A stretch of 64,000 nucleotides of DNA from Anadara kagoshimensis (lineage: Eukaryota; Mollusca; Bivalvia; Arcoida; Arcidae), in NCBI GenBank assembly GCA_021292105.1, contig CM037861.1, positions 28,420,545 to 28,484,544 on the forward strand, written 5' to 3'. The translations under genes were made by a program, and so were the position numbers. Below the pieces are notes generated by a model. The model was not told where the DNA came from and made no database searches. It was given only the letters and a program-made list of their open reading frames with translations. Below are positions 6,140-51,129 of the stretch, in pieces. How positions within the stretch are numbered: the first letter of the stretch is position 1; every line of letters begins with the position of its first letter.

Positions 6140-7252
6140 CAATATCTCGGCCCGTCGTTAGCTACATTTCTACAACTTTTTGGCAGCTGTTATCTATCTC
6201 TCGACAGTTTTTCGGTCAATAAAGATCCATATCTCGGCCACTCGGTTGCCGATTTTCACTACTTTTTCTTAGCTTATTTAAGTATTAAACTTAGGTCTGT
6301 CGAAAGTTTAATATTTAGATAACGAAATTGTACCGTTTATCTCGGCCCGTCGTTAGATACATTTCTACAACTTTTTGGCAGCTGTTATCTATCTCTCGAC
6401 AGTTTTTCGGTCAATAAAGATCCATATCTCGGCCACTCGGTTGCCGATTTTCACTACTTTTTCTTAGCTTATTTAAGTATTAAACTTTCGACAGGTCTGT
6501 ACTTTACATGCGGACGGGACATTTTGCGTAATTTTGAAAACGCTAAAACGGACATTCACTGATGCCAGGAATACTTTTTTGCGATATTGACTGTGACGTC
6601 ATAGATCTAGAGAGGATGCTCTTCTCTATGACGTCACAATAAGTTCTTTCTATGACGCCACAATCGATTCTTAGTAACGGGATCGAACCCAAAATTCTTA
6701 TGTTTTTCTACCTCTGTTCATGCATTCAGCGCAATCAGCAAAGTGTGAATAAAACAAAATGTAACTAAACAATCGCTAAAAGGAGTTGAGTTGAGTTGAG
6801 TAATGGTGTTTATTGACCCAGTCAAGAATATTTCACTTATATCGAGACGTCGCCAGCTATAGGCGAAGGTGCAGAAAACTTGCTTGTACGTTGCGCTGAT
6901 GGCATTATACAGCAGGGTTCTTTGGGGTGCAAAGGAGGAAATGTGTAAAAAGTTGGAAATTGAAGAAAAAAGAACAAAATGTTGTTGATAATAAAAAATG
7001 TACATTTTCGGTAAAGTTGTAGACAATCGGAAAAATTGTATTTATATGAAAATGCATGATGTTGAAGTTGGTATGTGCAGTGTGTTTTCTTTTCATATAA
7101 GTGAGTGGGGGCGTTAATTGCTCTTTGCAAGCAATCCTAACTGTACTACAACTGTTAAGCCTATACTCCCACTTGTGATCGAGTACTCATCAATCACCCT
7201 ATTCCACTAACGGGAAAAGCGGCTCGCTTTTTTCTTTTCTCATGTTTGACTT
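6140..7252 (+). repeat. Left-edge, partly rearranged macrosatellite monomer
   Basis: The array begins with a partial copy of the inverted-repeat segment (6140-6300), repeats it (6300-6495) and then runs through the rest of a monomer. It differs from all inner monomers in three ways. Only one copy of the ~61-bp SINE-like piece is present at 6795-6858. About 48 bp around the CpG-rich GCACGCTCGCGTACG word is missing near 7112. The hairpin at 6592-6638 is a perfect inverted repeat. These features fit an older or less homogenised edge unit. Confidence 0.8.
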
Positions 7253-9132
7253 ATGTTTTCTCAAACAAACAATAAAACTGTGTGTTGTGTGAAACGACAC
7301 TATTTCTATCAAACTCTAAGAGACAAAACAAATCAGAAGTTGCAATACACGTTTTTCAATTATTATTGTAATTTTGGTAATTTCGGAAAACTGCTTTGTT
7401 ACTGTTTTGTTGCCAAAACACTTAAAAATACACTCAAAAATTCCTTAAATCACTTTTACACGCTTCGTCGGACTTACGTTTTTGATAACATACATTGCGG
7501 GTCATGCACAGTACAGGCCTGTCGAAAGTTTAACATTAAGATAACGAAATTGTACCGTTTATCTCGGCCCCTCGTTAGCTACATTTCCACAGCTTTTTGG
7601 CAGCTTGGCAGTTGTTATCTATCTCTCTCGTCGGAATTACGTTTTGATACCATATATTACAGGGCATGTACAGTACAGGTCTGTCGAAAGTTTAACATTT
7701 AAGAAATTGTACCGTTTCTCTCGGTCTCTCGTTAGTTACATTTCCACAGCTTTTTTGGCAGCTTGGAAGCTGTTATCCATCTCTCTCGCCGGACTTACGT
7801 TTTTATAACATATTTATAACATATTTTACGGGTCAAGTAAAGTACAGGTCTGTCGAAAGTTTAATATTAAGATAACGAAATTGTACCGTTTATCTCGGCC
7901 CGTCGTTAGCTACATTTCTACAACTTTTTGGCAGCAGTTATCTATCTCTTGACAGTTTTTCGGTCAATAAAAATCCATATCTCGGCCACTCGGTTGCCGA
8001 TTTTCACTACTTTTTCTTAGCTTATTTAAGTATTAAACTTTCGACAGGTCTGTACTTTACATGCGGACGGGACATTTTGCGTAATTTTGAAAACGCTTAA
8101 AACGGACATTCACTGATGCCCGGAATAATTTTTTGCGATATTGACTGTGACGTCATAGATCTAGAGAGGATGCTCTTCTCTATGACGCCACAATAAGTTC
8201 TTTCTATGACGCCACAATCGATTCTTAGTAACGGGATCGAACCCGAAATTCTTATGTTTTTCTACCTCTGTTCATGCATTCAGCGCAATCAGCAAAGTGT
8301 GAATAAAACAAAATGTAACTTAACAATCGCTAAAAGGAGTTGAGTTGAGTTGAGTAATGGTGTTTATTAACCAAGTCAAGAATATTTCACTTATATCGAG
8401 ACGTCGCCAGTTGAGTAATGGTGTTTATTGACCCAGTCAAGAATATTTCACGTATATCGAGACGTCGCCAGCTATAGGCGAAGGTGCAGAAAACTTGCTT
8501 GTACGTTGCGCTGATGGCATTATACAGCAGGGTTCTTTGGGGTGCAAAGGAGGAAATGTGTAAAAAGTTGGAAATTGAAGAAAAAAGAACAAAATGTTGT
8601 TGATAATAAAAAATGTACATTTTCGGTAAAGTTGTAGACAATCGGAAAAATTGTATTTATATGAAAATGCATGATGTTGAAGTTGGTATGTGCAGTGTGT
8701 TTTCTTTTCATATAAGTGAGTGGGGGCGTGCACATAAAGGCACGCTCGCGTACGCACATAGCGACGAATTGTGTATTGGGTTATTTGCTCTTTGCAAGCA
8801 ATCCTAACTGTACTACAACTGTTAAGCCTATACTCCCACTTGTGATCGAGTACTCATCAATCACCCTATTCCACTAACGGGAAAAGCGGCTCGCTTTTTT
8901 CTTTTCTCATGTTTGACTTATGTTTTCTCAAACAAACAATAAAACTGTGTGTTGTGTGAAACGACACTATTTCTATCAAACTCTAAGAGACAAAACAAAT
9001 CAGAAGTTGCAATACACGTTTTTCAATTATTATTGTAATTTTGGTAATTTCGGAAAACTGCTTTGTTACTGTTTTGTTGCCAAAACACTTAAAAATACAC
9101 TCAAAAATTCCTTAAATCACTTTTACACGCTT

Positions 9133-9614
9133 CGTCGGACTTACGTTTTTGATAACATACATTGCGGGTCATGCACAGTACAGGCCTGTCGAAAGTTTAA
9201 CATTAAGATAACGAAATTGTACCGTTTATCTCGGCCCCTCGTTAGCTACATTTCCACAGCTTTTTGGCAGCTTGGCAGTTGTTATCTATCTCTCTCGTCG
9301 GAATTACGTTTTGATACCATATATTACAGGGCATGTACAGTACAGGTCTGTCGAAAGTTTAACATTTAAGAAATTGTACCGTTTCTCTCGGTCTCTCGTT
9401 AGTTACATTTCCACAGCTTTTTTGGCAGCTTGGAAGCTGTTATCCATCTCTCTCGCCGGACTTACGTTTTTATAACATATTTATAACATATTTTACGGGT
9501 CAAGTAAAGTACAGGTCTGTCGAAAGTTTAATATTAAGATAACGAAATTGTACCGTTTATCTCGGCCCGTCGTTAGCTACATTTCTACAACTTTTTGGCA
9601 GCAGTTATCTATCT
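9133..9614 (+). repeat. Three ~160-bp sub-repeats inside the monomer
   Basis: Units start at 9133 (CGTCGGACTTACG), 9296 (CGTCGGAATTACG) and 9454 (CGCCGGACTTACG). Each continues through GTACAGG(C/T)CTGTCGAAAG, GAAATTGTACCGTTT, TCTCGG, CGTTAG(C/T)TACATTTC and TTTTTGGCAGC to TATC(T/C)ATCTC. Periods are about 163, 158 and 161. The three differ from each other far more than monomers differ, so the sub-repeats predate amplification of the 1.66-kb unit. The same arrangement is present in every monomer. Confidence 0.85.
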
Positions 9615-9721
9615 CTTGACAGTTTTTCGGTCAATAAAAATCCATATCTCGGCCACTCGGTTGCCGATTTTCACTACTTTTTCTTAGCTTATTTAAGTAT
9701 TAAACTTTCGACAGGTCTGTA
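9510..9721. repeat. Inverted-repeat-bounded 212-bp segment of the monomer
   Basis: Left arm TACAGGTCTGTCGAAAGTTT (from 9510) and right arm ending AAACTTTCGACAGGTCTGTA (to 9721) are near-perfect inverse copies. The inner sequence contains TATCTCGG twice. A diverged copy sits inside the transposon at 20474-20670, and a partial second copy is at the left array edge. This suggests an old MITE-like element that became part of the monomer. No target duplication is preserved. Confidence 0.6.
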
Positions 9722-9811
9722 CTTTACATGCGGACGGGACATTTTGCGTAATTTTGAAAACGCTTAAACGGACATTCACTGATGCCCGGAATAATTTTTT
9801 GCGATATTGAC

Positions 9812-9857
9812 TGTGACGTCATAGATCTAGAGAGGATGCTCTTCTCTATGACGCCAC
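9812..9857. other. Hairpin with CRE-like palindrome TGACGTCA, one per monomer
   Basis: TGTGACGTCATAGA on the left and CTATGACGCCACA on the right can pair around a ~20-base middle. A third CTATGACGCCACA follows about 20 bases later. TGACGTCA is the consensus cAMP-response/ATF site, but a site inside a satellite need not be functional. In the edge monomer (6592-6638) both arms carry GACGTC and the pairing is perfect. In all inner monomers the right arm is GACGCC. Confidence 0.6.
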
Positions 9858-10015
9858 AATAAGTTCTTTCTATGACGCCACAATCGATTCTTAGTAACGG
9901 GATCGAACCCGAAATTCTTATGTTTTTCTACCTCTGTTCATGCATTCAGCGCAATCAGCAAAGTGTGAATAAAACAAAATGTAACTTAACAATCGCTAAA
10001 AGGAGTTGAGTTGAG

Positions 10016-10138
10016 TTGAGTAATGGTGTTTATTAACCAAGTCAAGAATATTTCACTTATATCGAGACGTCGCCAGTTGAGTAATGGTGTTTATTGACCC
10101 AGTCAAGAATATTTCACGTATATCGAGACGTCGCCAGC
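10016..10138 (+). repeat. Duplicated SINE-like piece inside the monomer
   Basis: Two ~61-bp copies in tandem (10016-10076, 10077-10138), each TTGAGTAATGGTGTTTATT, then TCAAGAATATTTCAC, then ATCGAGACGTCGCCAG. The words AAGAATATTTCACTTATAT and a following CCAGCT...GGTGAA also open the dispersed SINE-like relics at 39670 and 55945. The left-edge monomer has only one copy, so the duplication came before amplification of the inner array. Confidence 0.7.
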
Positions 10139-13100
10139 TATAGGCGAAGGTGCAGAAAACTTGCTTGTACGTTGCGCTGATGGCATTATACAGCAGGGTT
10201 CTTTGGGGTGCAAAGGAGGAAATGTGTAAAAAGTTGGAAATTGAAGAAAAAAGAACAAAATGTTGTTGATAATAAAAAATGTACATTTTCGGTAAAGTTG
10301 TAGACAATCGGAAAAATTGTATTTATATGAAAATGCATGATGTTGAAGTTGGTATGTGCAGTGTGTTTTCTTTTCATATAAGTGAGTGGGGGCGTGCACA
10401 TAAAGGCACGCTCGCGTACGCACATAGCGACGAATTGTGTATTGGGTTAATTGCTCTTTGCAAGCAATCCTAACTGTACTACAACTGTTAAGCCTATACT
10501 CCCACTTGTGATCGAGTACTCATCAATCACCCTATTCTACTAACCTGAAAAGCGGCTCGCTTTTTTCTTTTCTCATGTTTGACTTATGTTTTCTCAAACA
10601 AACAATAAAACTGTGTGTTGTGTGAAACGACACTATTTCTATCAAACTCTAAGAGACAAAACAAATCAGAAGTTGCAATACACGTTTTTCAATTATTATT
10701 GTAATTTTGGTAATTTCGGAAAACTGCTTTGTTACTGTTTTGTTGCCAAAACACTTAAAAATACACTCAAAAATTCCTTAAATCACTTTTACACGCTTCG
10801 TCGGACTTACGTTTTTGATAACATACATTGCGGGTCATGCACAGTACAGGCCTGTCGAAAGTTTAACATTAAGATAACGAAATTGTACCGTTTATCTCGG
10901 CCCCTCGTTAGCTACATTTCCACAGCTTTTTGGCAGCTTGGCAGTTGTTATCTATCTCTCTCGTCGGAATTACGTTTTGATACCATATATTACAGGGCAT
11001 GTACAGTACAGGTCTGTCGAAAGTTTAACATTTAAGAAATTGTACCGTTTCTCTCGGTCTCTCGTTAGTTACATTTCCACAGCTTTTTTGGCAGCTTGGA
11101 AGCTGTTATCCATCTCTCTCGCCGGACTTACGTTTTTATAACATATTTATAACATATTTTACGGGTCAAGTAAAGTACAGGTCTGTCGAAAGTTTAATAT
11201 TAAGATAACGAAATTGTACCGTTTATCTCGGCCCGTCGTTAGCTACATTTCTACAACTTTTTGGCAGCAGTTATCTATCTTGACAGTTTTTCGGTCAATA
11301 AAAATCCATATCTCGGCCACTCGGTTGCCGATTTTCACTACTTTTTCTTAGCTTATTTAAGTATTAAACTTTCGACAGGTCTGTACTTTACATGCGGACG
11401 GGACATTTTGCGTAATTTTGAAAACGCTAAACGGACATTCACTGATGCCCGGAATAATTTTTTGCGATATTGACTGTGACGTCATAGATCTAGAGAGGAT
11501 GCTCTTCTCTATGACGCCACAATAAGTTCTTTCTATGACGCCACAATCGATTCTTAGTAACGGGATCGAACCCGAAATTCTTATGTTTTTCTACCTCTGT
11601 TCATGCATTCAGCGCAATCAGCAAAGTGTGAATAAAACAAAATGTAACTTAACAATCGCTAAAAGGAGTTGAGTTGAGTTGAGTAATGGTGTTTATTAAC
11701 CAAGTCAAGAATATTTCACTTATATCGAGACGTCGCCAGTTGAGTAATGGTGTTTATTGACCCAGTCAAGAATATTTCACGTATATCGAGACGTCGCCAG
11801 CTATAGGCGAAGGTGCAGAAAACTTGCTTGTACGTTGCGCTGATGGCATTATACAGCAGGGTTCTTTGGGGTGCAAAGGAGGAAATGTGTAAAAAGTTGG
11901 AAATTGAAGAAAAAAGAACAAAATGTTGTTGATAATAAAAAATGTACATTTTCGGTAAAGTTGTAGACAATCGGAAAAATTGTATTTATATGAAAATGCA
12001 TGATGTTGAAGTTGGTATGTGCAGTGTGTTTTCTTTTCATATAAGTGAGTGGGGGCGTGCACATAAAGGCACGCTCGCGTACGCACATAGCCACGAATTG
12101 TGTATTGGGTTAATTGCTCTTTGCAAGCAATCCTAACTGTACTACAACTGTTAAGCCTATACTCCCACTTGTGATCGAGTACTCATCAATCACCCTATTC
12201 CACTAACGAAAAGCGGCTCGCTTTTTTCTTTTCTCATGTTTGACTTATGTTTTTCAAACAAACAATAAAACTGTGTGTTGTGTGAAACGACACTATTTCT
12301 ATCAAACTCTAAGAGACAAAACAAATCAGAAGTTGCAATACACGTTTTTCAATTATTATTGTAATTTTGGTAATTTCGGAAAACTGCTTTGTTACTGTTT
12401 TGTTGCCAAAACACTTAAAAATACACTCAAAAATTCCTTAAATCACTTTTACACGCTTCGTCGGACTTACGTTTTTGATAACATACATTGCGGGTCATGC
12501 ACAGTACAGGCCTGTCGAAAGTTTAACATTAAGATAACGAAATTGTACCGTTTATCTCGGCCCCTCGTTAGCTACATTTCCACAGCTTTTTGGCAGCTTG
12601 GCAGTTGTTATCTATCTCTCTCGTCGGAATTACGTTTTGATACCATATATTACAGGGCATGTACAGTACAGGTCTGTCGAAAGTTTAACATTTAAGAAAT
12701 TGTACCGTTTCTCTCGGTCTCTCGTTAGTTACATTTCCACAGCTTTTTTGGCAGCTTGGAAGCTGTTATCCATCTCTCTCGCCGGACTTACGTTTTTATA
12801 ACATATTTATAACATATTTTACGGGTCAAGTAAAGTACAGGTCTGTCGAAAGTTTAATATTAAGATAACGAAATTGTACCGTTTATCTCGGCCCGTCGTT
12901 AGCTACATTTCTACAACTTTTTGGCAGCAGTTATCTATCTCTTGACAGTTTTTCGGTCAATAAAAATCCATATCTCGGCCACTCGGTTGCCGATTTTCAC
13001 TACTTTTTCTTAGCTTATTTAAGTATTAAACTTTCGACAGGTCTGTACTTTACATGCGGACGGGACATTTTGCGTAATTTTGAAAACGCTAAAACGGACA

Positions 13101-16100
13101 TTCACTGATGCCCGGAATAATTTTTTGCGATATTGACTGTGACGTCATAGATCTAGAGAGGATGCTCTTCTCTATGACGCCACAATAAGTTCTTTCTATG
13201 ACGCCACAATCGATTCTTAGTAACGGGATCGAACCCGAAATTCTTATGTTTTTCTACCTCTGTTCATGCATTCAGCGCAATCAGCAAAGTGTGAATAAAA
13301 CAAAATGTAACTTAACAATCGCTAAAAGGAGTTGAGTTGAGTTGAGTAATGGTGTTTATTAACCAAGTCAAGAATATTTCACTTATATCGAGACGTCGCC
13401 AGTTGAGTAATGGTGTTTATTGACCCAGTCAAGAATATTTCACGTATATCGAGACGTCGCCAGCTATAGGCGAAGGTGCAGAAAACTTGCTTGTACGTTG
13501 CGCTGATGGCATTATACAGCAGGGTTCTTTGGGGTGCAAAGGAGGAAATGTGTAAAAAGTTGGAAATTGAAGAAAAAAGAACAAAATGTTGTTGATAATA
13601 AAAAATGTACATTTTCGGTAAAGTTGTAGACAATCGGAAAAATTGTATTTATATGAAAATGCATGATGTTGAAGTTGGTATGTGCAGTGTGTTTTCTTTT
13701 CATATAAGTGAGTGGGGGCGTGCACATAAAGGCACGCTCGCGTACGCACATAGCGACGAATTGTGTATTGGGTTAATTGCTCTTTGCAAGCAATCCTAAC
13801 TGTACTACAACTGTTAAGCCTATACTCCCACTTGTGATCGAGTACTCATCAATCACCCTATTCCACTAACGGGAAAAGCGGCTCGCTTTTTTCTTTTCTC
13901 ATGTTTGACTTATGTTTTCTCAAACAAACAATAAAACTGTGTGTTGTGTGAAACGACACTATTTCTATCAAACTCTAAGAGACAAAACAAATCAGAAGTT
14001 GCAATACACGTTTTTCAATTATTATTGTAATTTTGGTAATTTCGGAAAACTGCTTTGTTACTGTTTTGTTGCCAAAACACTTAAAAATACACTCAAAAAT
14101 TCCTTAAATCACTTTTACACGCTTCGTCGGACTTACGTTTTTGATAACATACATTGCGGGTCATGCACAGTACAGGCCTGTCGAAAGTTTAACATTAAGA
14201 TAACGAAATTGTACCGTTTATCTCGGCCCCTCGTTAGCTACATTTCCACAGCTTTTTGGCAGCTTGGCAGTTGTTATCTATCTCTCTCGTCGGAATTACG
14301 TTTTGATACCATATATTACAGGGCATGTACAGTACAGGTCTGTCGAAAGTTTAACATTTAAGAAATTGTACCGTTTCTCTCGGTCTCTCGTTAGTTACAT
14401 TTCCACAGCTTTTTTGGCAGCTTGGAAGCTGTTATCCATCTCTCTCGCCGGACTTACGTTTTTATAACATATTTATAACATATTTTACGGGTCAAGTAAA
14501 GTACAGGTCTGTCGAAAGTTTAATATTAAGATAACGAAATTGTACCGTTTATCTCGGCCCGTCGTTAGCTACATTTCTACAACTTTTTGGCAGCAGTTAT
14601 CTATCTCTTGACAGTTTTTCGGTCAATAAAAATCCATATCTCGGCCACTCGGTTGCCGATTTTCACTACTTTTTCTTAGCTTATTTAAGTATTAAACTTT
14701 CGACAGGTCTGTACTTTACATGCGGACGGGACATTTTGCGTAATTTTGAAAACGCTAAAACGGACATTCACTGATGCCCGGAATAATTTTTTGCGATATT
14801 GACTGTGACGTCATAGATCTAGAGAGGATGCTCTTCTCTATGACGCCACAATAAGTTCTTTCTATGACGCCACAATCGATTCTTAGTAACGGGATCGAAC
14901 CCGAAATTCTTATGTTTTTCTACCTCTGTTCATGCATTCAGCGCAATCAGCAAAGTGTGAATAAAACAAAATGTAACTTAACAATCGCTAAAAGGAGTTG
15001 AGTTGAGTTGAGTAATGGTGTTTATTAACCAAGTCAAGAATATTTCACTTATATCGAGACGTCGCCAGTTGAGTAATGGTGTTTATTGACCCAGTCAAGA
15101 ATATTTCACGTATATCGAGACGTCGCCAGCTATAGGCGAAGGTGCAGAAAACTTGCTTGTACGTTGCGCTGATGGCATTATACAGCAGGGTTCTTTGGGG
15201 TGCAAAGGAGGAAATGTGTAAAAAGTTGGAAATTGAAGAAAAAAGAACAAAATGTTGTTGATAATAAAAAATGTACATTTTCGGTAAAGTTGTAGACAAT
15301 CGGAAAAATTGTATTTATATGAAAATGCATGATGTTGAAGTTGGTATGTGCAGTGTGTTTTCTTTTCATATAAGTGAGTGGGGGCGTGCACATAAAGGCA
15401 CGCTCGCGTACGCACATAGCGACGAATTGTGTATTGGGTTAATTGCTCTTTGCAAGCAATCCTAACTATACTACAACTGTTAAGCCTATACTCCCACTTG
15501 TGATCGAGTACTCATCAATCACCCTATTCCACTAACGGGAAAAGCGGCTCGCCTTTTTTATTTTCTCATGTTTGACTTATGTTTTCTCAAACAAACAATA
15601 AAACTGTGTGTTGTGTGAAACGACACTATTTCTATCAAACTCTAAGAGACAAAACAAATCAGAAGTTGCAATACACGTTTTTCAATTATTATTGTAATTT
15701 TGGTAATTTCGGAAAACTGCTTTGTTACTGTTTTGTTGCCAAAACACTTAAAAATACACTCAAAAATTCCTTAAATCAATTTTACACGCTTCGTCGGACT
15801 TACGTTTTTGATAACATACATTGCGGGTCATGCACAGTACAGGCCTGTCGAAAGTTTAACATTAAGATAACGAAATTGTACCGTTTATCTCGGCCCCTCG
15901 TTAGCTACATTTCCACAGCTTTTTGGCAGCTTGGCAGTTGTTATCTATCTCTCTCGTCGGAATTACGTTTTGATACCATATATTACAGGGCATGTACAGT
16001 ACAGGTCTGTCGAAAGTTTAACATTTAAGAAATTGTACCGTTTCTCTCGGTCTCTCGTTAGTTACATTTCCACAGCTTTTTTTGGCAGCTTGGAAGCTGT

Positions 16101-18610
16101 TATCCATCTCTCTCGCCGGACTTACGTTTTTATAACATATTTATAACATATTTTACGGGTCAAGTAAAGTACAGGTCTGTCGAAAGTTTAATATTAAGAT
16201 AACGAAATTGTACCGTTTATCTCGGCCCGTCGTTAGCTACATTTCTACAACTTTTTGGCAGCAGTTATCTATCTCTTGACAGTTTTTCGGTCAATAAAAA
16301 TCCATATCTCGGCCACTCGGTTGCCGATTTTCACTACTTTTTCTTAGCTTATTTAAGTATTAAACTTTCGACAGGTCTGTACTTTACATGCGGACGGGAC
16401 ATTTTGCGTAATTTTGAAAACGCTAAAACGGACATTCACTGATGCCCGGAATAATTTTTTGCGATATTGACTGTGACGTCATAGATCTAGAGAGGATGCT
16501 CTTCTCTATGACGCCACAATAAGTTCTTTCTATGACGCCACAATCGATTCTTAGTAACGGGATCGAACCCGAAATTCTTATGTTTTTCTACCTCTGTTCA
16601 TGCATTCAGCGCAATCAGCAAAGTGTGAATAAAACAAAATGTAACTTAACAATCGCTAAAAGGAGTTGAGTTGAGTTGAGTAATGGTGTTTATTAACCAA
16701 GTCAAGAATATTTCACTTATATCGAGACGTCGCCAGTTGAGTAATGGTGTTTATTGACCCAGTCAAGAATATTTCACGTATATCGAGACGTCGCCAGCTA
16801 TAGGCGAAGGTGCAGAAAACTTGCTTGTACGTTGCGCTGATGGCATTATACAGCAGGGTTCTTTGGGGTGCAAAGGAGGAAATGTGTAAAAAGTTGGAAA
16901 TTGAAGAAAAAAGAACAAAATGTTGTTGATAATAAAAAATGTACATTTTCCAGTAGGATAGCCAACCCGGCCAGCGCATTGATTCATCAAACAAAATTTC
17001 ACGCGCAGACAAAGTGAAAAAATTGTCAAAAATTTGAATTCACTCGAGGCGGTAAAATTACATAATATTTATTTCACTGCGAGTTTTTAATACTATTTGT
17101 AGTATTTTATCGTCTTTTGAGGACAAAAGTAAGTCATTAAAGACGATTTTTATCAAAGTCGGTGAGAATTTAACAATTTAAATCGTAATTGAATGTGAGG
17201 CACCGGCGAAAAATTGAAAATTGAAACTTTAAAAAATATCATTCTGTGTACACAGTTCCTCATGCACCAAAAATGTTTTTACGTGAACGGAAAGAACTTT
17301 TTCTCACGGTTATTTTGATGTATAATTTGTCAAATAATTTTCTTTACACAAAAAACGTACCAGTTTCAAATGTCGAAAAAATCGATGACATTGCCGGATT
17401 CTCGATCATGGGCCGCCCCCTTTCCGGCTAATTTGACACAGAAAAAATGCTAAGACAACTTCCTTATTGTATGTAATGTATAAATTTGATAATCGAGAGA
17501 CGCTGTGGAGATATTTTTGTTGAAATAAAGTAAGTTTTTCCTTAAAAATATTGTATTTTCGCTCCATTTCTCGTCTAATCTGCCGATTTTTTGGAACTAC
17601 TTCCAGTCGGACATATTTGATTAGCCTTCGTCCCGCTTCGATCACAATTTTAGCATACAGAAAATGTCATTGTGTATTTTGGACAAAATAGTCAAGCTTT
17701 TTTGCCTTATTTGTCATGTATGATCGATCTGCATGGCTGTCGAACACATTAGATACGCATGTGTTCTAATTTTACCCATATGGACTCGGGATCTGTGCCA
17801 ATACAGTGTACAGTGCAACCTGCTCATGTAGGGCTAGTTAGGGACTCAGAATTACTGAAAATTACCAACTGATTTTGCTTTGCTGGCAAAATATAAACAG
17901 GACCTGTCTGTCATATCAGTACATATCATTGGATAAATAAGCTAACATCCGAAAAAAGGGTTAGACTGGATTTTTCTTTATGAAATATTTCCCAAAATGA
18001 GGAAACATCTCCCATGTTAGTTTAGCCAGAGTCAACACAACATTGGTCTTTATTATTTAAATTTTTGTTTCTGTTCTGATGCCAATAACCCCGGCATTAT
18101 TATTTTGGTACAATTTAGACATGAAAAATTGATTATATTGCTTCATTAAAAGTTTAAGTCAACTTGACATAGCACAAATAACATTTAAAATAGACTATGT
18201 GGAAGTAGGGAATAGGAAAAGTTAATACTAATCATGACTTGGTTAAAAATTTAACTCCTTATTATAATTATTAAATACAGATCTGTAAAATATTTAGGAA
18301 TTTCAGTAATTTCTGTAAAATTGTAAAATTCTGATAAATAAATACCACCTTCTTTCAGGAAAATTCATGGGAACTGGTTTGATAATAACATTAAGAAATA
18401 AGTTGATGCAAATGCAGTGAAATCCATGACACAGTGGATCCAAATGGGCATTATTAGTTTGAACGAATTCAAAATAATTGTAACACACGGGCCTATTCCA
18501 GATTTATTGATTTATCAGTTAAATTTAGAATTGATTGGTTGGTATACACACTCCATTCAAGATTATTTCACTTATAATCAGGTAAATGAGATTAAGGGGG
18601 AAACTAAGTA

Positions 18611-37753: not shown

Positions 37754-37804
<51 letters not shown>

Positions 37805-37806
37805 TT
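37691..37806. repeat. TTTA microsatellite
   Basis: An almost pure TTTA run with a few TTTATA interruptions. A plus-strand frame across it encodes only IYLF words and is not a gene. Confidence 0.9.
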
Positions 37807-38449: not shown

Positions 38450-39244
38450 GAGAGAGAGAGAGAGATTATAACTTGAGATAATGTGTGGCCTAGGCAAGTC
38501 AAAAATACATTGAAGACATTCAAACGCATTATTCAATTCAATTCTTTAATTAACTGTGTTCCTTACTCCACATTAGCAAAATATATACAGTAGAGTTCGG
38601 CTATAGCTGAATTTAATAGGCACACTTTTTAGTCCCGGACCGTATATCGACATACATCGTACAACATAGTTTAGTGGAAGACTTACAGATTCTGTGGCAC
38701 TTGACTTTACATACGTCTCAAAATCCTGGATGAGACAATGGTCCTCGTTACCTCTGTAGTCTTTATGTCAATTGAGAGAGAGAGAGGGGGGAGGGGGACA
38801 TCAGATGCCGAGTGAACTAAAGCGTGCGTTGACGGATCAAGAGCACAGCACCTTTTACCGCTTAGATTTAAAGCCAAACCAGACTAATCCTTCAAGATGT
38901 GAAAATGTTTGCTTGTCGACTGTGAACTATCCTAGAACCGTCAGGTCCTCTCAACATAACTGACCGTGAAAATCTTGACATCCTCATTTTCTGTCCAGCG
39001 ATTATAGTGTCTCTGCTAAGGTTTGCATCAAACTAGATGGGACAGGTTCTAGTGTAAGACAATTTCTCAGTTCGCTTCGTTTTCACATTTATAAGTGAAA
39101 TAATATAGAGGAAACTATTACTCCGCTATCCTGATAATGTTAAAAAAAGCTATCCAGATACTGTTGATAAAAAGTTTTAATCCCCAAAAACATATTAATT
39201 TGTGTTCGTCAAACAAAAAAGTTAGCTTAGAATATCACTAGGTC

Positions 39245-39275
<31 letters not shown>
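38450..39275. other. Interior of the fold-back element with scattered GA runs
   Basis: Short (GA)n runs at about 38450-38466, 38776-38788 and 39246-39273. The flanks of the last run (GCTTAGAATATC, CCAGGTCT or TAGGTCT, then GATTTGGGTTTACAGTGCCGT) recur about 125 bases further on, an imperfect local duplication. Nothing coding is recognised here or between 37807 and 38449. Confidence 0.5.
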
Positions 39276-39278
<3 letters not shown>

Positions 39279-39669
39279 GTTAACAACTTTACAGTGCCGT
39301 TCTTTTTTTTTAACAAAAAAATATTATCAAATTATCAACTCGCGGCTTAGAATATCGCCAGGTCTAGGGGGCAAGGAGAGAGAGAGATAGATTTGGGTTT
39401 ACAGTGCCGTAAACTTTTTGAAATTATTATCAAATGTATTCAAGAAATAGTATATGGCAACAGTAACAAATATACAGATTTTGAAATAGTTCTATTGTGT
39501 TAATATCAGATTAAAGTGTCAACATTATGATGTTTAAACTCTCTATTGAGATTTATTTAATTTTGCAGAATGAAATCATTACTCTTCTGTTGTTTAAAAA
39601 TCATTACTTCACTTACTCTTTCTCTCATAAAACAGTTTAATGATGTGATTGATTAAATGAGGTTTTACA

Positions 39670-39905
39670 TCTCTGTTAAGAATATTTCACTTATATCGAG
39701 ATATCACCAGCTAAGGTGAAATAGTAGAAATTTTGACCTGACGGAGGGTACGCCTGACACGGGACATTTGTTTTAAGATCTTTTCAAACGACCCATGGCT
39801 TTCAATCCCGAATGCCGAGTGCTTGGTGAAAGACGTCACTACCCACAGGCTATTTTTAAGTCTTGGTCAGACCCGATCGCGTTTTGGACCCACGACTTCC
39901 AAAAT
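39670..39905 (+). repeat. SINE-like relic (copy in the fold-back element)
   Basis: Starts GTTAAGAATATTTCACTTAT, followed by ATCACCAGCTAAGGTGAAAT. It ends with GAATGCCGAGTGCTTGGTGA, then CTATTTTTAAGTCTTGGTCA and GGACCCACGACTTCC. The 5' part matches the macrosatellite piece and the relic at 55945. The 3' part resembles, from memory, the tRNA-derived SINE family spread through bivalve genomes, whose far end holds a GGTTCGAACCC-like box. It is too diverged to be active. Confidence 0.55.
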
Positions 39906-40314
39906 ACAAAGCATCGTATAGAGATACCATAGTGGCAGTTTTAAACGTGAAATGTAAAACCATAACATCAAGTGGATCTGTGTCATTCATTCATTTTTCA
40001 CTTTCAATGTTACAAGGATTACAAAATATCATTGTAACTGTTCCTCTATCTTTAATTTGTACAATACGAATGTATTTTCTTTTGAAAATTATTCATGCAT
40101 TAATAAACAAAGTAGTTTGCGGTATTTCAATAATAAGAAAAATAGTTATTATGGACAATTTAAAATAAAAATTATTTAAAAGTACAGTTTTAAGAATAAT
40201 TGTAATTTATTGTATATAAAATGTCGAATTAAAATTTAATTGTTTTATCATTTTATCATTTTTAACAATTTATTATTTTTGTCATTTTTATTTTTAATTT
40301 ATCACTTTTATTTT

Positions 40315-40317
<3 letters not shown>

Positions 40318-40349
<32 letters not shown>
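40318..40349. repeat. (CA)n microsatellite
   Basis: A clean CA dinucleotide run of about 15 units in very AT-rich DNA. Positions 39906-41124 otherwise contain no gene or RNA that I recognise. Confidence 0.9.
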
Positions 40350-40350
<1 letters not shown>

Positions 40351-41124
40351 TTTTTGCTGTAAAATGTATATAGAGTGGTACAATATATATTCTGACACTG
40401 AAAAATCCCATATATTTTTTAATAATTCTCAAAAATTTATTTTTCGGTCATTTTCCATGAATATTTCACTGTAAAATGTAAAATTTGTTGAAGTTTTTCT
40501 TAAAAATAATTAGAAAAGAAAATTTCACTGTTTTTAATAGATAAACATTTCAAATTCAACGAAAAATTTATAAAAATGAAATCTACAATATAATCATGCT
40601 TAACATGGTTGTTAAAAATTTACAATGCTGTTCAGCTTTTTTTTTTACTGTTATAAGATGGACAATATTTTGGATATTATTGGAATAAACTACAATAACT
40701 GAATTCACACAAATTCAGTGCACATGGAAAAATGCAAGAAATAAAATCGTTTTTTCCAGCAAACTCACAAAAACCTACCCACAAAAATGTCAAAACTTGG
40801 GTGGTTTCTACCAAGGGATATGAATAACTGATTGATATTAATGTTTGCTGGTCAGATATATAAGTGTATTACAGGTGAGGTTTTAAATTCCTTTGACATC
40901 TTGGGTCAGTTAACCTATAAATTATTCCACTTCAGAATGAAAGACAAAATAATAATAATTTATTATTATTATTATTTAAATTAAAATATTTTACATAAGG
41001 AGTAAAATGACATATAGGTATATATTTTTTATATAATTATTTAATATCTGAAAGTTTTAGAGCTGGTCACGTGATCACATGGCCTAAATTTACTTGTATA
41101 TAAATTATGAAGTATTAGATCATC

Positions 41125-41215
41125 TCCTCCGTGGCCTAATGGATAAGGATGCAGAGTCAGATAAGATTGTATATTCTGGGAACCCAAGGGTCGTGAGTTC
41201 CAGTCCTGCAGAGGA
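41125..41215 (+). tRNA. tRNA-like sequence, probable pseudogene or SINE head
   Basis: TCCTCCG (41125-41131) can pair with CAGAGGA (41209-41215) in six of seven positions, like an acceptor stem. The D-arm region GTGGCCTAATGGATAAGG is typical of tRNA genes (seen in tRNA-Arg) and fits the A-box. A CAGA...TCTG pair encloses a 19-base loop, too long unless it holds an intron. The T-arm is poor (GAGTTCCAGTC in place of GGTTCRANTCC). It is followed by AGATAAGTAAGTAAG and A-rich DNA. A decayed tRNA gene or the head of a tRNA-derived SINE fits better than a working tRNA. Confidence 0.45.
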
Positions 41216-41725
41216 CAGATAAGTAAGTAAGTTAAAAATGAATTAAAGGAAAAGCAAATAAAATATTAATAATAATAAATAAAAATATTAATAAACTAAA
41301 ATGAAATAAATAAAAAATAAAATAAAAATTAAAAAAAAAAAAAAAAACAATGACTAAATAAAAAAATCAAAGATAAAAACAAAATTATTTATGTGAAACA
41401 GTGCAATAATAGTTTTGAAATAAATTAAAAATTATTTTTAGCTTCATATTTATATAATTTAACATTAAATAAACAAATTGAAATTTAAAACTGAATTATA
41501 TTAAATCGTATATAAAAAGTGAACTAAAACTGAATTTAACATAAAGATGGCGTAAAGATGGCATAAAGGACTTTGGACATTATGCATCTTTACGCATATG
41601 CATAAAGATGGCATAAAGAATGCATAAAGAAGGCATAAAGACTGCATAAAGGACATCTTTATGCCACCATTATGCCATCTTTACACAATCTTTATGCATG
41701 CATAAAGACATGTTTTCGTGCTGTG

Positions 41726-44700
41726 TTATGTTTTCTCAAACAAACAATAAAACTGTGTGTTGTGTGAAACGACACTATTTCTATCAAACTCTAAGAGACA
41801 AAACAAATCAGAAGTTGCAATACACGTTTTTCAATTATTATTGTAATTTTGGTAATTTCGGAAAACTGCTTTGTTACTGTTTTGTTGCCAAAACACTTAA
41901 AAATACACTCAAAAATTCCTTAAATCACTTTTACACGCTTCGTCGGACTTACGTTTTTGATAACATACATTGCGGGTCATGCACAGTACAGGCCTGTCGA
42001 AAGTTTAACATTAAGATAACGAAATTGTACCGTTTATCTCGGCCCCTCGTTAGCTACATTTCCACAGCTTTTTGGCAGCTTGGCAGTTGTTATCTATCTC
42101 TCTCGTCGGAATTACGTTTTGATACCATATATTACAGGGCATGTACAGTACAGGTCTGTCGAAAGTTTAACATTTAAGAAATTGTACCGTTTCTCTCGGT
42201 CTCTCGTTAGTTACATTTCCACAGCTTTTTTGGCAGCTTGGAAGCTGTTATCCATCTCTCTCGCCGGACTTACGTTTTTATAACATATTTATAACATATT
42301 TTACGGGTCAAGTAAAGTACAGGTCTGTCGAAAGTTTAATATTAAGATAACGAAATTGTACCGTTTATCTCGGCCCGTCGTTAGCTACATTTCTACAACT
42401 TTTTGGCAGCTGTTATCTATCTCTCGACAGTTTTTCGGTCAATAAAAATCCATATCTCGGCCACTCGGTTGCCGATTTTCACTACTTTTTCTTAGCTTAT
42501 TTAAGTATTAAACTTTCGACAGGTCTGTACTTTACATGCGGACGGGACATTTTGCGTAATTTTGAAAACGCTAAAACGGACATTCACTGATGCCAGGAAT
42601 AATTTTTTGCGATATTGACTGTGACGTCATAGATCTAGAGAGGATGCTCTTCTCTATGACGCCACAATAAGTTCTTTCTATGACGCCACAATCGATTCTT
42701 AGTAACGGGATCGAACCCGAAATTCTTATGTTTTTCTACCTCTGTTCATGCATTCAGCGCAATCAGCAAAGTGTGAATAAAACAAAATGTAACTTAACAA
42801 TCGCTAAAAGGAGTTGAGTTGAGTTGAGTAATGGTGTTTATTAACCAAGTCAAGAATATTTCACTTATATCGAGACGTCGCCAGTTGAGTAATGGTGTTT
42901 ATTGACCCAGTCAAGAATATTTCACGTATATCGAGACGTCGCCAGCTATAGGCGAAGGTGCAGAAAACTTGCTTGTACGTTGCGCTGATGGCATTATACA
43001 GCAGGGTTCTTTGGGGTGCAAAGGAGGAAATGTGTAAAAAGTTGGAAATTGAAGAAAAAAGAACAAAATGTTGTTGATAATAAAAAATGTACATTTTCGG
43101 TAAAGTTGTAGACAATCGGAAAAATTGTATTTATATGAAAATGCATGATGTTGAAGTTGGTATGTGCAGTGTGTTTTCTTTTCATATAAGTGAGTGGGGG
43201 CGTGCACATAAAGGCACGCTCGCGTACGCACATAGCGACGAATTGTGTATTGGGTTAATTGCTCTTTGCAAGCAATCCTAACTGTACTACAACTGTTAAG
43301 CCTATACTCCCACTTGTGATCGAGTACTCATCAATCACCCTATTCCACTAACGGGAAAAGCGGCTCGCTTTTTTCTTTTCTCATGTTTGACTTATGTTTT
43401 CTCAAACAAACAATAAAACTGTGTGTGTGTGAAACGACACTATTTCTATCAAACTCTAAGAGACAAAACAAATCAGAAGTTGCAATACACGTTTTTCAAT
43501 TATTATTGTAATTTTGGTAATTTCGGAAAACTGCTTTGTTACTGTTTTGTTGCCAAAACACTTAAAAATACACTCAAAAATTCCTTAAATCACTTTTACA
43601 CGCTTCGTCGGACTTACGTTTTTGATAACATACATTGCGGGTCATGCACAGTACAGGCCTGTCGAAAGTTTAACATTAAGATAACGAAATTGTACCGTTT
43701 ATCTCGGCCCCTCGTTAGCTACATTTCCACAGCTTTTTGGCAGCTTGGCAGTTGTTATCTATCTCTCTCGTCGGAATTACGTTTTGATACCATATATTAC
43801 AGGGCATGTACAGTACAGGTCTGTCGAAAGTTTAACATTTAAGAAATTGTACCGTTTCTCTCGGTCTCTCGTTAGTTACATTTCCACAGCTTTTTTGGCA
43901 GCTTGGAAGCTGTTATCCATCTCTCTCGCCGGACTTACGTTTTTATAACATATTTATAACATATTTTACGGGTCAAGTAAAGTACAGGTCTGTCGAAAGT
44001 TTAATATTAAGATAACGAAATTGTACCGTTTATCTCGGCCCGTCGTTAGCTACATTTCTACAACTTTTTGGCAGCTGTTATCTATCTCTCGACAGTTTTT
44101 CGGTCAATAAAAATCCATATCTCGGCCACTCGGTTGCCGATTTTCACTACTTTTTCTTAGCTTATTTAAGTATTAAACTTTCGACAGGTCTGTACTTTAC
44201 ATGCGGACGGGACATTTTGCGTAATTTTGAAAACGCTAAAACGGACATTCACTGATGCCCGGAATAATTTTTTGCGATATTGACTGTGACGTCATAGATC
44301 TAGAGAGGATGCTCTTCTCTATGACGCCACAATAAGTTCTTTCTATGACGCCACAATCGATTCTTAGTAACGGGATCGAACCCGAAATTCTTATGTTTTT
44401 CTACCTCTGTTCATGCATTCAGCGCAATCAGCAAAGTGTGAATAAAACAAAATGTAACTTAACAATCGCTAAAAGGAGTTGAGTTGAGTTGAGTAATGGT
44501 GTTTATTAACCAAGTCAAGAATATTTCACTTATATCGAGACGTCGCCAGTTGAGTAATGGTGTTTATTGACCCAGTCAAGAATATTTCACGTATATCGAG
44601 ACGTCGCCAGCTATAGGCGAAGGTGCAGAAAACTTGCTTGTACGTTGCGCTGATGGCATTATACAGCAGGGTTCTTTGGGGTGCAAAGGAGGAAATGTGT

Positions 44701-47700
44701 AAAAAGTTGGAAATTGAAGAAAAAAGAACAAAATGTTGTTGATAATAAAAAATGTACATTTTCGGTAAAGTTGTAGACAATCGGAAAAATTGTATTTATA
44801 TGAAAATGCATGATGTTGAAGTTGGTATGTGCAGTGTGTTTTCTTTTCATATAAGTGAGTGGGGGCGTGCACATAAAGGCACGCTCGCGTACGCACATAG
44901 CGACGAATTGTGTATTGGGTTAATTGCTCTTTGCAAGCAATCCTAACTGTACTACAACTGTTAAGCCTATACTCCCACTTGTGATCGAGTACTCATCAAT
45001 CACCCTATTCCACTAACGGGAAAAGCGGCTCGCTTTTTTCTTTTCTCATGTTTGACTTATGTTTTCTCAAACAAACAATAAAACTGTGTGTTGTGTGAAA
45101 CGACACTATTTCTATCAAACTCTAAGAGACAAAACAAATCAGAAGTTGCAATACACGTTTTTCAATTATTATTGTAATTTTGGTAATTTCGGAAAACTGC
45201 TTTGTTACTGTTTTGTTGCCAAAACACTTAAAAATACACTCAAAAATTCCTTAAATCACTTTTACACGCTTCGTCGGACTTACGTTTTTGATAACATACA
45301 TTGCGGGTCATGCACAGTACAGGCCTGTCGAAAGTTTAACATTAAGATAACGAAATTGTACCGTTTATCTCGGCCCCTCGTTAGCTACATTTCCACAGCT
45401 TTTTGGCAGCTTGGCAGTTGTTATCTATCTCTCTCGTCGGAATTACGTTTTGATACCATATATTACAGGGCATGTACAGTACAGGTCTGTCGAAAGTTTA
45501 ACATTTAAGAAATTGTACCGTTTCTCTCGGTCTCTCGTTAGTTACATTTCCACAGCTTTTTTGGCAGCTTGGAAGCTGTTATCCATCTCTCTCGCCGGAC
45601 TTACGTTTTTATAACATATTTATAACATATTTTACGGGTCAAGTAAAGTACAGGTCTGTCGAAAGTTTAATATTAAGATAACGAAATTGTACCGTTTATC
45701 TCGGCCCGTCGTTAGCTACATTTCTACAACTTTTTGGCAGCTGTTATCTATCTCTCGACAGTTTTTCGGTCAATAAAAATCCATATCTCGGCCACTCGGT
45801 TGCCGATTTTCACTACTTTTTCTTAGCTTATTTAAGTATTAAACTTTCGACAGGTCTGTACTTTACATGCGGACGGGACATTTTGCGTAATTTTGAAAAC
45901 GCTAAAACGGACATTCACTGATGCCCGGAATAATTTTTTGCGATATTGACTGTGACGTCATAGATCTAGAGAGGATGCTCTTCTCTATGACGCCACAATA
46001 AGTTCTTTCTATGACGCCACAATCGATTCTTAGTAACGGGATCGAACCCGAAATTCTTATGTTTTTCTACCTCTGTTCATGCATTCAGCGCAATCAGCAA
46101 AGTGTGAATAAAACAAAATGTAACTTAACAATCGCTAAAAGGAGTTGAGTTGAGTTGAGTAATGGTGTTTATTAACCAAGTCAAGAATATTTCACTTATA
46201 TCGAGACGTCGCCAGTTGAGTAATGGTGTTTATTGACCCAGTCAAGAATATTTCACGTATATCGAGACGTCGCCAGCTATAGGCGAAGGTGCAGAAAACT
46301 TGCTTGTACGTTGCGCTGATGGCATTATACAGCAGGGTTCTTTGGGGTGCAAAGGAGGAAATGTGTAAAAAGTTGGAAATTGAAGAAAAAAGAACAAAAT
46401 GTTGTTGATAATAAAAAATGTACATTTTCGGTAAAGTTGTAGACAATCGGAAAAATTGTATTTATATGAAAATGCATGATGTTGAAGTTGGTATGTGCAG
46501 TGTGTTTTCTTTTCATATAAGTGAGTGGGGGCGTGCACATAAAGGCACGCTCGCGTACGCACATACCGACGAATTGTGTATTGGGTTAATTGCTCTTTGC
46601 AAGCAATCCTAACTGTACTACAACTGTTAAGCCTATACTCCCACTTGTGATCGAGTACTCATCAATCACCCTATTCCACTAACGGGAAAAGCGGCTCGCT
46701 TTTTTCTTTTCTCATGTTTGACTTATGTTTTCTCAAACAAACAATAAAACTGTGTGTTGTGTGAAACGACACTATTTCTATCAAACTCTAAGAGACAAAA
46801 CAAATCAGAAGTTGCAATACACGTTTTTCAATTATTATTGTAATTTTGGTAATTTCGGAAAACTGCTTTGTTACTGTTTTGTTGCCAAAACACTTAAAAA
46901 TACACTCAAAAATTCCTTAAATCACTTTTACACGCTTCGTCGGACTTACGTTTTTGATAACATACATTGCGGGTCATGCACAGTACAGGCCTGTCGAAAG
47001 TTTAACATTAAGATAACGAAATTGTACCGTTTATCTCGGCCCCTCGTTAGCTACATTTCCACAGCTTTTTGGCAGCTTGGCAGTTGTTATCTATCTCTCT
47101 CGTCGGAATTACGTTTTGATACCATATATTACAGGGCATGTACAGTACAGGTCTGTCGAAAGTTTAACATTTAAGAAATTGTACCGTTTCTCTCGGTCTC
47201 TCGTTAGTTACATTTCCACAGCTTTTTTGGCAGCTTGGAAGCTGTTATCCATCTCTCTCGCCGGACTTACGTTTTTATAACATATTTATAACATATTTTA
47301 CGGGTCAAGTAAAGTACAGGTCTGTCGAAAGTTTAATATTAAGATAACGAAATTGTACCGTTTATCTCGGCCCGTCGTTAGCTACATTTCTACAACTTTT
47401 TGGCAGCTGTTATCTATCTCTCGACAGTTTTTCGGTCAATAAAAATCCATATCTCGGCCACTCGGTTGCCGATTTTCACTACTTTTTCTTAGCTTATTTA
47501 AGTATTAAACTTTCGACAGGTCTGTACTTTACATGCGGACGGGACATTTTGCGTAATTTTGAAAACGCTAAAACGGACATTCACTGATGCCCGGAATAAT
47601 TTTTTGCGATATTGACTGTGACGTCATAGATCTAGAGAGGATGCTCTTCTCTATGACGCCACAATAAGTTCTTTCTATGACGCCACAATCGATTCTTAGT

Positions 47701-50700
47701 AACGGGATCGAACCCGAAATTCTTATGTTTTTCTACCTCTGTTCATGCATTCAGCGCAATCAGCAAAGTGTGAATAAAACAAAATGTAACTTAACAATCG
47801 CTAAAGGAGTTGAGTTGAGTTGAGTAATGGTGTTTATTAACCAAGTCAAGAATATTTCACTTATATCGAGACGTCGCCAGTTGAGTAATGGTGTTTATTG
47901 ACCCAGTCAAGAATATTTCACGTATATCGAGACGTCGCCAGCTATAGGCGAAGGTGCAGAAAACTTGCTTGTACGTTGCGCTGATGGCATTATACAGCAG
48001 GGTTCTTTGGGGTGCAAAGGAGGAAATGTGTAAAAAGTTGGAAATTGAAGAAAAAAGAACAAATGTTGTTGATATAAAAAATGTACATTTTCGGTAAAGT
48101 TGTAGACAATCGGAAAAATTGTATTTATATGAACATGCATGATGTTGAAGTTGGTATGTGCAGTGTGTTTTCTTTCATATAAGTGAGTGGGGGCGTGCAC
48201 ATAAAGGCACGCTCGCGTACGCACATAGCGACGAATTGTGTATTGGGTTAATTGCTCTTTGCAAGCAATCCTAACTGTACTACAACTGTTAAGCCTATAC
48301 TCCCACTTGTGATCGAGTACTCATCAATCACCCTATTCCACTAACGGGAAAAGCGGCTCGCTTTTTTCTTTCTCATGTTTGACTTATGTTTTCTCAAACA
48401 AACAATAAAACTGTGTGTTGTGTGAAACGACACTATTTCTATCAAACTCTAAGAGACAAAACAAATCAGAAGTTGCAATACACGTTTTTCAATTATTATT
48501 GTAATTTTGGTAATTTCGGAAAACTGCTTTGTTACTGTTTTGTTGCCAAAACACTTAAAAATACACTCAAAAATTCCTTAAATCACTTTTACACGCTTCG
48601 TCGGACTTACGTTTTTGATAACATACATTGCGGGTCATGCACAGTACAGGCCTGTCGAAAGTTTAACATTAAGATAACGAAATTGTACCGTTTATCTCGG
48701 CCCCTCGTTAGCTACATTTCCACAGCTTTTTGGCAGCTTGGCAGTTGTTATCTATCTCTCTCGTCGGAATTACGTTTTGATACCATATATTACAGGGCAT
48801 GTACAGTACAGGTCTGTCGAAAGTTTAACATTTAAGAAATTGTACCGTTTCTCTCGGTCTCTCGTTAGTTACATTTCCACAGCTTTTTTGGCAGCTTGGA
48901 AGCTGTTATCCATCTCTCTCGCCGGACTTACGTTTTTATAACATATTTATAACATATTTTACGGGTCAAGTAAAGTACAGGTCTGTCGAAAGTTTAATAT
49001 TAAGAAAACGAAATTGTACCGTTTATCTCGGCCCGTCGTTAGCTACATTTCTACAACTTTTTGGCAGCTGTTATCTATCTCTCGACAGTTTTTCGGTCAA
49101 TAAAAATCCATATCTCGGCCACTCGGTTGCCGATTTTCACTACTTTTTCTTAGCTTATTTAAGTATTAAACTTTCGACAGGTCTGTACTTTACATGCGGA
49201 CGGGACATTTTGCGTAATTTTGAAAACGCTTAAACGGACATTCACTGATGCCCGGAATAATTTTTTGCGATATTGACTGTGACGTCATAGATCTAGAGAG
49301 GATGCTCTTCTCTATGACGCCACAATAAGTTCTTTCTATGACGCCACAATCGATTCTTAGTAACGGGATCGAACCCGAAATTCTTATGTTTTTTCTACCT
49401 CTGTTCATGCATCAGCGCAATCAGCAAAGTGTGAATAAAAACAAATGTAACTTAACAATCGCTAAAAGGAGTTGAGTTGAGTTGAGTAATGGTGTTTATT
49501 AACCAAGTCAAGAATATTTCACTTATATCGAGACGTCGCCAGTTGAGTAATGGTGTTTATTGACCAGTCAAGAATATTTCACGTATATCGAGACGTCGCC
49601 AGCTATAGGCGAAGGTGCAGAAAACTTGCTTGTACGTTGCGCTGATGGCATTATACAGCAGGGTTCTTTGGGGTGCAAAGGAGGAAATGTGTAAAAAGTT
49701 GGAAATTGAAGAAAAAAGAACAAAATGTTGTTGATAATAAAAAATGTACATTTTCGGTAAAGTTGTAGACAATCGGAAAAATTGTATTTATATGAACATG
49801 CATGATGTTGAAGTTGGTATGTGCAGTGTGTTTCTTTTCATATAAGTGAGTGGGGCGTGCACATAAAGGCACGCTCCGCGTACGCACATAGCGACGAATT
49901 GTGTATTGGGTTAATTGCTCTTTGCAAGCAATCCTAACTGTACTACAACTGTTAAGCTATACTCCCACTTGTGATCGAGTACTCATCAATCACCTATTCC
50001 ACTAACGGGAAAAGCGGCTCGCTTTTTTCTTTTCTCATGTTTGACTTATGTTTTCTCAAACAAACAATAAAACTGTGTGTTGTGTGAAACGACACTATTT
50101 CTATCAAACTCTAAGAGACAAAACAAATCAGAAGTTGCATACACGTTTTTCAATTATTATTGTAATTTTGGTAATTTCGGAAAACTGCTTTGTTACTGTT
50201 TTGTTGCCAAAACACTTAAAAATACACTCAAAAATTCCTTAAATCACTTTTACACGCTTCGTCGGACTTACGTTTTGATAACATACATTGCGGGTCATGC
50301 ACAGTACAGGCCTGTCGAAAGTTTAACATTAAGATAACGAAATTGTACCGTTTATCTCGGCCCCTCGTTAGCTACATTTCCACAGCTTTTTGGCAGCTTG
50401 GCAGTTGTTATCTATCTCTCTCGTCGGAATTACGTTTTGATACCATATATTACAGGGCATGTACAGTACAGGTCTGTCGAAAGTTTAACATTTAAGAAAT
50501 TGTACGTTTCTCTCGGTCTCTCGTTAGTTACATTTCCACAGCTTTTTTGGCAGCTTGGAAGCTGTTATCCATCTCTCTCGCCGGACTTACGTTTTTATAA
50601 CATATTTATCATATTTTACGGGTCAAGTAAAGTACAGGTCTGTCGAAAGTTTAATATTAAGATAACGAAATTGTACCGTTTATCTCGGCCCGTCGTTAGC

Positions 50701-51129
50701 TACATTTCTACAACTTTTTGGCAGCTGTTATCTATCTCTCGACAGTTTTTCGGTCAATAAAAATCCATATCTCGGCCACTCGGTTGCCGATTTTCACTAC
50801 TTTTTCTTAGCTTATTTAAGTATTAAACTTTCGACAGGTCTGTACTTACATGCGGACGGGACATTTTGCGTAATTTTGAAAACGCTAAAACGGACATTCA
50901 CTGATGCCCGGAATAATTTTTTGCGATATTGACTGTGACGTCATAGATCTAGAGAGGATGCTCTTCTCTATGACGCCACAATAAGTTCTTTCTATGACGC
51001 CACAATCGATTCTTAGTAACGGGATCGAACCCGAAATTCTTATGTTTTTCTACCTCTGTTCATGCATTCAGCGCAATCAGCAAAGTGTGAATAAAACAAA
51101 ATGTAACTTAACAATCGCTAAAAGGAGTT
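41726..51129 (+). repeat. Macrosatellite block 3, up to the assembly gap
   Basis: Five complete monomers (41728 to 50047) and 1082 bp of a sixth, joined to the fold-back element by about 12 unexplained bases (TTTTCGTGCTGTG region). All carry GGCAGCTGTTATC with TCTCTCGACAG, the form also found in the left-edge monomer and not in blocks 1-2. The last two monomers before the gap contain many single-base insertions and deletions that the others lack. Confidence 0.85.

Follow-up and report, generated by a model that had tools for sequence, protein, structure and literature searches.

A window of 64,000 bp from the genome of the bivalve Anadara kagoshimensis, by which we mean the whole stretch of DNA analysed here, contains kilobase-long units that are almost indistinguishable from one another. 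Two questions follow: is the tandem array genuine, or was it produced by the assembler, and from what was such a unit put together? Our analysis indicates that the locus is a real, young, long-unit satellite array that is apparently non-coding. With a probability of about 0.7, we consider that its unit of 1,666 bp was assembled from several mobile-element remnants, became tandemised and was later interrupted. The module and variant comparisons behind this reading were all made within the one 64-kb window and hence concern a single locus.

Extent and interruptions of the array

The distances between repeated 24-mers in the 64-kb window peak at 1,666 bp and neighbouring values, and tandem units, 1,638-1,667 bp long and most often of 1,666 bp, run head to tail on the plus strand from 6142 to a run of N beginning at 51130. 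A reference monomer of 1,666 bp (9400-11065, plus strand) served as the blastn query against the window and sets phase 1-1666 as used below. This search recovered 17 complete and five partial monomers, together with a 151-bp piece at the left edge. The earlier note on this DNA had described about 18 monomers of 1661-1667 bp in one array at 6140-51129; the tandem repetition and the outer coordinates stand, while the count and the length range are replaced by those given here, and the supposed continuity gives way to three blocks with two interruptions. Monomer DNA occupies 32,614 bp, or 19.6 unit-lengths, of the claimed span of 44,990 bp, and the two interruptions contribute 12,373 bp of non-monomer DNA, more than a quarter of that span.

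The three blocks, whose limits come from the blastn search with one monomer and from alignment, all lie on the plus strand. Block A (6142-16950) opens with the left-edge piece and a shortened monomer (6293-7732); five complete copies follow, and then the left 892 bp of a sixth. Block B (21263-33664) begins with the right part of this split monomer, continues with seven complete copies and ends after 4 bp of the next, and block C (41726-51129) starts partway through a monomer, at phase 1185, and goes on with five complete copies and a last partial one. As the earlier note had it, the array runs into a gap: block C ends at 51129 and is directly followed by exactly 1,000 N (51130-52129). Beyond the gap, blastn within the window found no monomer sequence, so that the right edge of the array is unseen. 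In the left-edge piece (6142-6292, plus strand), phase ~158-321 is fused back to phase 114, and the junction sits in an inverted repeat, with the inverted arm joined to the direct arm. When 6266-6325 is folded, the junction forms a 19-bp stem in which 17 pairs are Watson-Crick and two are G-T/U, suggesting that inverted repeats promote rearrangement in the array.

Other tandem repeats occur in the window. Just left of the 1.67-kb array, units of 46 bp form another satellite-like array (3478-4796 and 5268-5647; TRF consensus TTGACATTTGGGATTGTGATTTGGACATGGACCGGTATGTTTGTGT), which is diverged, with 72-80% matches. A repeat of ~175 bp is present in 3.3 copies at 56456-57041 (79% matches), and one of 93 bp in about seven copies near the window's right end (62926-63587, 93% matches), with a relative at 60578-60759.

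The first interruption is a DNA-transposon-like insertion of 4,312 bp (16951-21262), bounded by perfect terminal inverted repeats of 15 bp and a 3-bp target duplication, TTC; with up to two mismatches allowed, the window holds no match to these termini other than the two themselves. Joining the flanks after removal of TTC restores a 117-bp site of which the window contains 14 intact copies, whereas the sites joined on the assumption of other duplication lengths (0-2 and 4-7) occur 0 times. Because of these empty sites, we conclude that the element inserted into a pre-existing monomer. A dispersed repeat of ~160 bp, 81-84% alike among its copies and present in both orientations, was seen at 18607-18768, 52303-52460 and 61611-61772.

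The second interruption (33665-41725, 8,061 bp) combines a LINE copy with A+T-rich DNA between inverted, hairpin-rich ends. Around it the monomer breaks off at phase 4 and picks up at phase 1185, and therefore phase 5-1184, about 1,180 bp of monomer sequence, is absent there. An open frame of 927 codons on the minus strand (33845-36625) encodes a non-LTR reverse transcriptase domain (Pfam RVT_1, E 3.1e-40); against the PDB its best hit is 'RNA-directed DNA polymerase' (E 4.9e-31), and LINE-1 ORF2p follows at E 1.1e-30. Read on the minus strand, the LINE copy is closed downstream of this frame by a TTAC-repeat tail at ~33665. No endonuclease domain was found with the reverse transcriptase frame, and the LINE copy is for this reason probably a 5'-truncated non-LTR element. 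The remainder of the interruption is A+T-rich, and its inverted ends (36623-37038 and 41216-41619) are 70% alike and partly of low complexity. By eye, 41120-41235 looks SINE-like: it contains A- and B-box words like those of a tRNA, and a TAAG-type tail comes after them. ARAGORN calls no tRNA there.

Homogeneity and variation among monomers

Among the 17 complete monomers, ungapped identity averages 99.77% over all 136 pairs (lowest 99.34%, highest 100%), corresponding to 0-11 mismatches per pair with a mean of 3.8. Divergence grows with distance along the array when all mismatches are considered (Mantel r 0.470, p 0.0001, 9,999 permutations) and does so more weakly when only the nine shared-variant columns are used (r 0.355, p 0.0025), an outcome that is partly due to the division of the array into blocks. 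The near identity reported earlier is borne out by these figures, which together with the distance-dependent divergence also lend support to the recent amplification or strong homogenisation proposed at the time. That the closest neighbours are the most alike fits local unequal exchange or gene conversion, two processes that are not separable here. With head-to-tail units of more than 1 kb and concerted evolution among them, the array takes its place among satellites.

Individual columns show how such variants are distributed. At column 1216, G is confined to five consecutive monomers. Columns 205/219 could be matched by fixed context at 20 places, a count that leaves out one interior monomer in which a deletion prevents the match: T/C is read at the two left-most places and throughout block C (six places), and the 12 matched places that lie between these have A/T. 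In alignment, the MITE-like relative inside the first insertion, described below, also reads T/C, and the interior A/T variant is on this account probably derived and locally spread. Most simply, A/T would have originated in the interior of the array and extended across blocks A and B, the left edge and block C having kept the older state. Local unequal exchange or conversion, in which the edges lag behind, would be expected to leave such a pattern.

Length variation bears on the quality of the assembly. Two monomers carry private deletions, one of 28 bp and one of 8 bp. Single-base indels number 11 in the complete monomer nearest the gap and five in the one preceding it, as against 0-4 indel events in each of the other 15 complete monomers. 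This excess suggests that the consensus is poor where the contig ends within a repeat, and given these indel-rich final monomers the array near the gap is more likely to have been collapsed than expanded. The same apparent lack of polishing, and the near identity of the monomers, are what one would cite if the whole array were an artefact in which the assembler had expanded one or two monomers. Yet a source of one or two units would not yield variants that are specific to position and lie in contiguous runs, variants peculiar to a block and the private deletions, nor a transposon-like insertion with its target duplication inside one monomer. We therefore regard an expansion artefact as very unlikely.

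Composition, possible function and origin of the unit

Self-comparison of the monomer by blast and alignment reveals about three subrepeats of ~160 bp per unit, 80-85% alike, at phase 54-217 (9453-9616 in the reference monomer, plus strand), at phase ~1399-1560 and at phase ~1562-1666 running into 1-53. An inverted arm at phase 290-331 (9689-9730, minus strand; self-blast and arm alignment) is the reverse complement of the arm that each subrepeat carries, over 39-42 bp and at 83-87% identity. Further along lies a dispersed-repeat-like module at phase 608-805 (10007-10204, plus strand), delimited by blastn against the masked window with a shuffle control and by TRF, which reports inside it a tandem duplication of 61 bp at phase 615-738. 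The unit also contains a short GAGTT repeat. For phase ~806-1398, some 590 bp, no source was recognised. Finally, a pattern search located on the minus strand the word GGTTCGATCCC (9899-9909), which resembles a Pol III B-box. It occurs 20 times in the window, once in each complete or partial monomer that covers it and nowhere else, and these 20 occurrences are copies of one word and not independent events.

Does the unit encode anything? The longest frames of the reference monomer, 150 and 138 codons from stop to stop, have no Pfam match at E values up to 1, and small indels alter the length of the longest frames in some copies, so that we rejected a coding unit. The Pfam set comprised these two frames and eight of the 21 non-array frames of at least 90 codons; a flank frame at 199-507 gave three hits at E 0.13-0.22, below the family cut-offs. 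Tandem RNA genes (rDNA, 5S, snRNA, tRNA) were likewise rejected: no Rfam family reached its gathering score anywhere in the window, ARAGORN found no tRNA in it, and a permissive cmscan of one unit returned two hits (E 1.3 and 4.6) far below gathering scores. A tRNA-derived SINE head, suspected from the B-box word, met with no tRNA model match, and no clear A box was seen by eye.

The base composition of the array invites a functional explanation all the same. CpG observed/expected ratios are 1.24, 1.24 and 1.27 in its three blocks, compared with 0.79 in the left flank, 0.69 in the first insertion, 0.91 in the second interruption and 0.49 in the right flank, and CpG transitions account for none of the 37 substitutions relative to the consensus (14 transitions, 23 transversions). 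The high ratio and the missing CpG transitions suggest, as far as composition can tell, an array that bears no sign of long germline methylation. The array might then be a centromere- or chromatin-boundary-type macrosatellite or the template of a non-coding RNA, an explanation for which the apparently low methylation and the B-box-like word in each of the 20 covering units could both be cited. Against it stand the absence of RNA family and tRNA matches, and the lack of any match to a CTCF-like core (searched with up to one mismatch) or of a run of three telomere repeats. Moreover, CpG richness may have been inherited from unmethylated parent elements and would be preserved by youth alone, either of which accounts for it as well as function does. 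We judge a functional array to be highly improbable, and a still longer shot is the specific version in which tandemised dead elements gained a Pol III-RNA or boundary role as a transcribed or chromatin-organising satellite free of CpG methylation. If it were true, high CpG and homogeneity would reflect selection and not youth alone. The heterochromatic or centromere-near location and the variable copy number that the earlier note thought possible likewise find no support in this window. We infer that the array is without function.

The origin of the unit was approached by a blastn search for its modules in the 64-kb window with the array masked, for which 20 dinucleotide shuffles served as control and yielded at best 35.4 bits. 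The best non-monomer match (86.8 bits, 74% identical) joins phase 200-330 to 20543-20672 within the first insertion. Here, sequence and alignment delimit a MITE-like unit (20474-20669) with inverted arms at both ends, reading TA-CAGTACAGAC ... GTCTGTACTG-TA. Its TA-flanked ends are of the form of Tc1/mariner-type MITEs, and the MITE/Tc1-mariner label is a putative one; the unit is present in a single copy in the window, located in an insertion within the same array. Parts of the module at phase 608-805 match 39641-39735 (54.0 bits), 55916-56045 (55.4 bits) and 61459-61563 (41.1 bits), taking the best stretch at each place. Matched at three places outside the monomers, this module is a candidate mobile element, and it may resemble a bivalve-wide repeat (RUDI-like). 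Two modules are accordingly matched outside the monomers, at 41-87 bits, one of them in a single-copy MITE-like unit, and a satellite composed of transposable elements is a reading of these matches and not a settled membership.

On this basis, the following course of events seems the most plausible. Part of a MITE-like inverted-repeat element would have been tandemly duplicated about three times, giving rise to the 160-bp subrepeats and leaving an inverted arm in place, and a fragment of a dispersed repeat and the B-box-bearing piece would have come to adjoin this MITE-derived part. The entire patchwork unit may then have been amplified head to tail, recently, its copies being kept alike by unequal exchange or gene conversion between near neighbours. 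Later insertions of the DNA transposon and of the LINE-bearing stretch would have split the array into three blocks. We infer this order from the modules, the variants and the interruptions of the one locus.

One uncharacterised element could hold all these parts, since the dispersed module copies are short and along most of the sequence just 64-75% alike, a single MITE-like copy is present and about 590 bp of the unit has no recognised source. The unit might accordingly be a complete non-autonomous element, either a pearl/HINE-like Helentron derivative or a foldback, that was tandemised whole, for example by rolling-circle amplification. The ~160-bp internal tandem repeats, the inverted arms and the GAGTT repeat recall the HINE elements of the Pacific oyster, in which central repeats are mostly 140-180 bp long; Helitron-type elements can also occur whole in tandem (PMC7492417). 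The roughly three subrepeats of our unit fall within the HINE size range. However, the 30 kb of non-array sequence gave no match to a single full-length copy of the unit, its parts match separate non-array places independently, and no HINE end modules or 3' palindrome were recognised on unsystematic inspection. A HINE element would be expected to have two end modules with subterminal inverted repeats, a 3' palindrome and an insertion at TT that duplicates no target. The BIV160 primers given in PMC5139131 fare no better on the unit than shuffled sequence: their best sites have 11 and 8 mismatches, where the medians of 100 shuffles are 10 and 8, a comparison that concerns the primers only. A whole element as the unit is consequently unlikely, and assembly from several remnants is the origin that we prefer.

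Comparison with known satellites and elements

Vertebrate macrosatellites such as D4Z4 and DXZ4 consist of nearly identical kilobase units in tandem at one locus, and the present array is like them in each of these respects. It differs in that no gene and no CTCF-like core were found in its 1.67-kb unit.

The unit itself was not met in text searches of the literature, which says little without repeat sequence databases. Primer sequences of named bivalve repeats give no support for BIV160 or for biv-TRIM, an element with a terminal direct repeat (PMC6934838), the latter with 6 and 8 mismatches at best where the best of 100 shuffles had 6 and 7. The same is true of the golden-mussel satellites LfoSat004 and LfoSat025, whose primers show 5-7 mismatches at best over both strands of the window, compared with 5-8 for five one-strand shuffles each. 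As in HINE/pearl and BIV160/Cg170, repeats of ~160 bp lie within a longer module (PMC7492417, PMC5139131), but here the BIV160 primers are unmatched, HINE ends are not recognised and the amplified unit is 1.67 kb long. Xstir and the Xenopus Tc1/mariner MITE miDNA4 likewise tie tandem repeats to parts of inverted-repeat elements, as outlined in a review (PMC12628747); in our array, in contrast, the MITE-like part makes up a minority of a longer unit, and this long unit, not a 160-bp repeat, was amplified. Foreign sequence inserted into a satellite monomer and flanked by direct repeats has also been described (PMC5139131).

The earlier note held that long-unit satellites are poorly described in invertebrates. 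For bivalves this is overstated: in six oyster satellitomes the monomer ranges reach 2,421 to 16,346 bp at their upper ends (PMC11136912), and golden mussel units span 22-2,891 bp, a 1,783-bp family having served as a FISH probe (PMC12818792). Kilobase-long and composite satellites are thus already on record in oysters, where 'Multiple TEs' satellites are listed in five of the six satellitomes (PMC11136912), and our unit, whose 1.67 kb falls within their reported kilobase range, is an ordinary example of a long-unit satellite. The oyster composites are made of short stretches resembling different repeats, with inverted and direct repeats, in tandem arrays (PMC11136912; PMC12628747), and our monomer appears to be of similar make; our case differs from them in being a single locus in one window, with modules that bear no Repbase element names. 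A review has proposed, in a section that also summarises MITE-based routes, that mixtures of degraded elements become tandemised into composite satellites, the TE-graveyard model (PMC12628747). The Anadara array adds a case to this proposal and leaves it unchanged. Its value lies in showing legibly how a satellite may come into being: candidate source modules, partial internal and whole-unit amplification, homogenisation that lags at an edge, and later break-up by mobile elements can all be seen in one locus.
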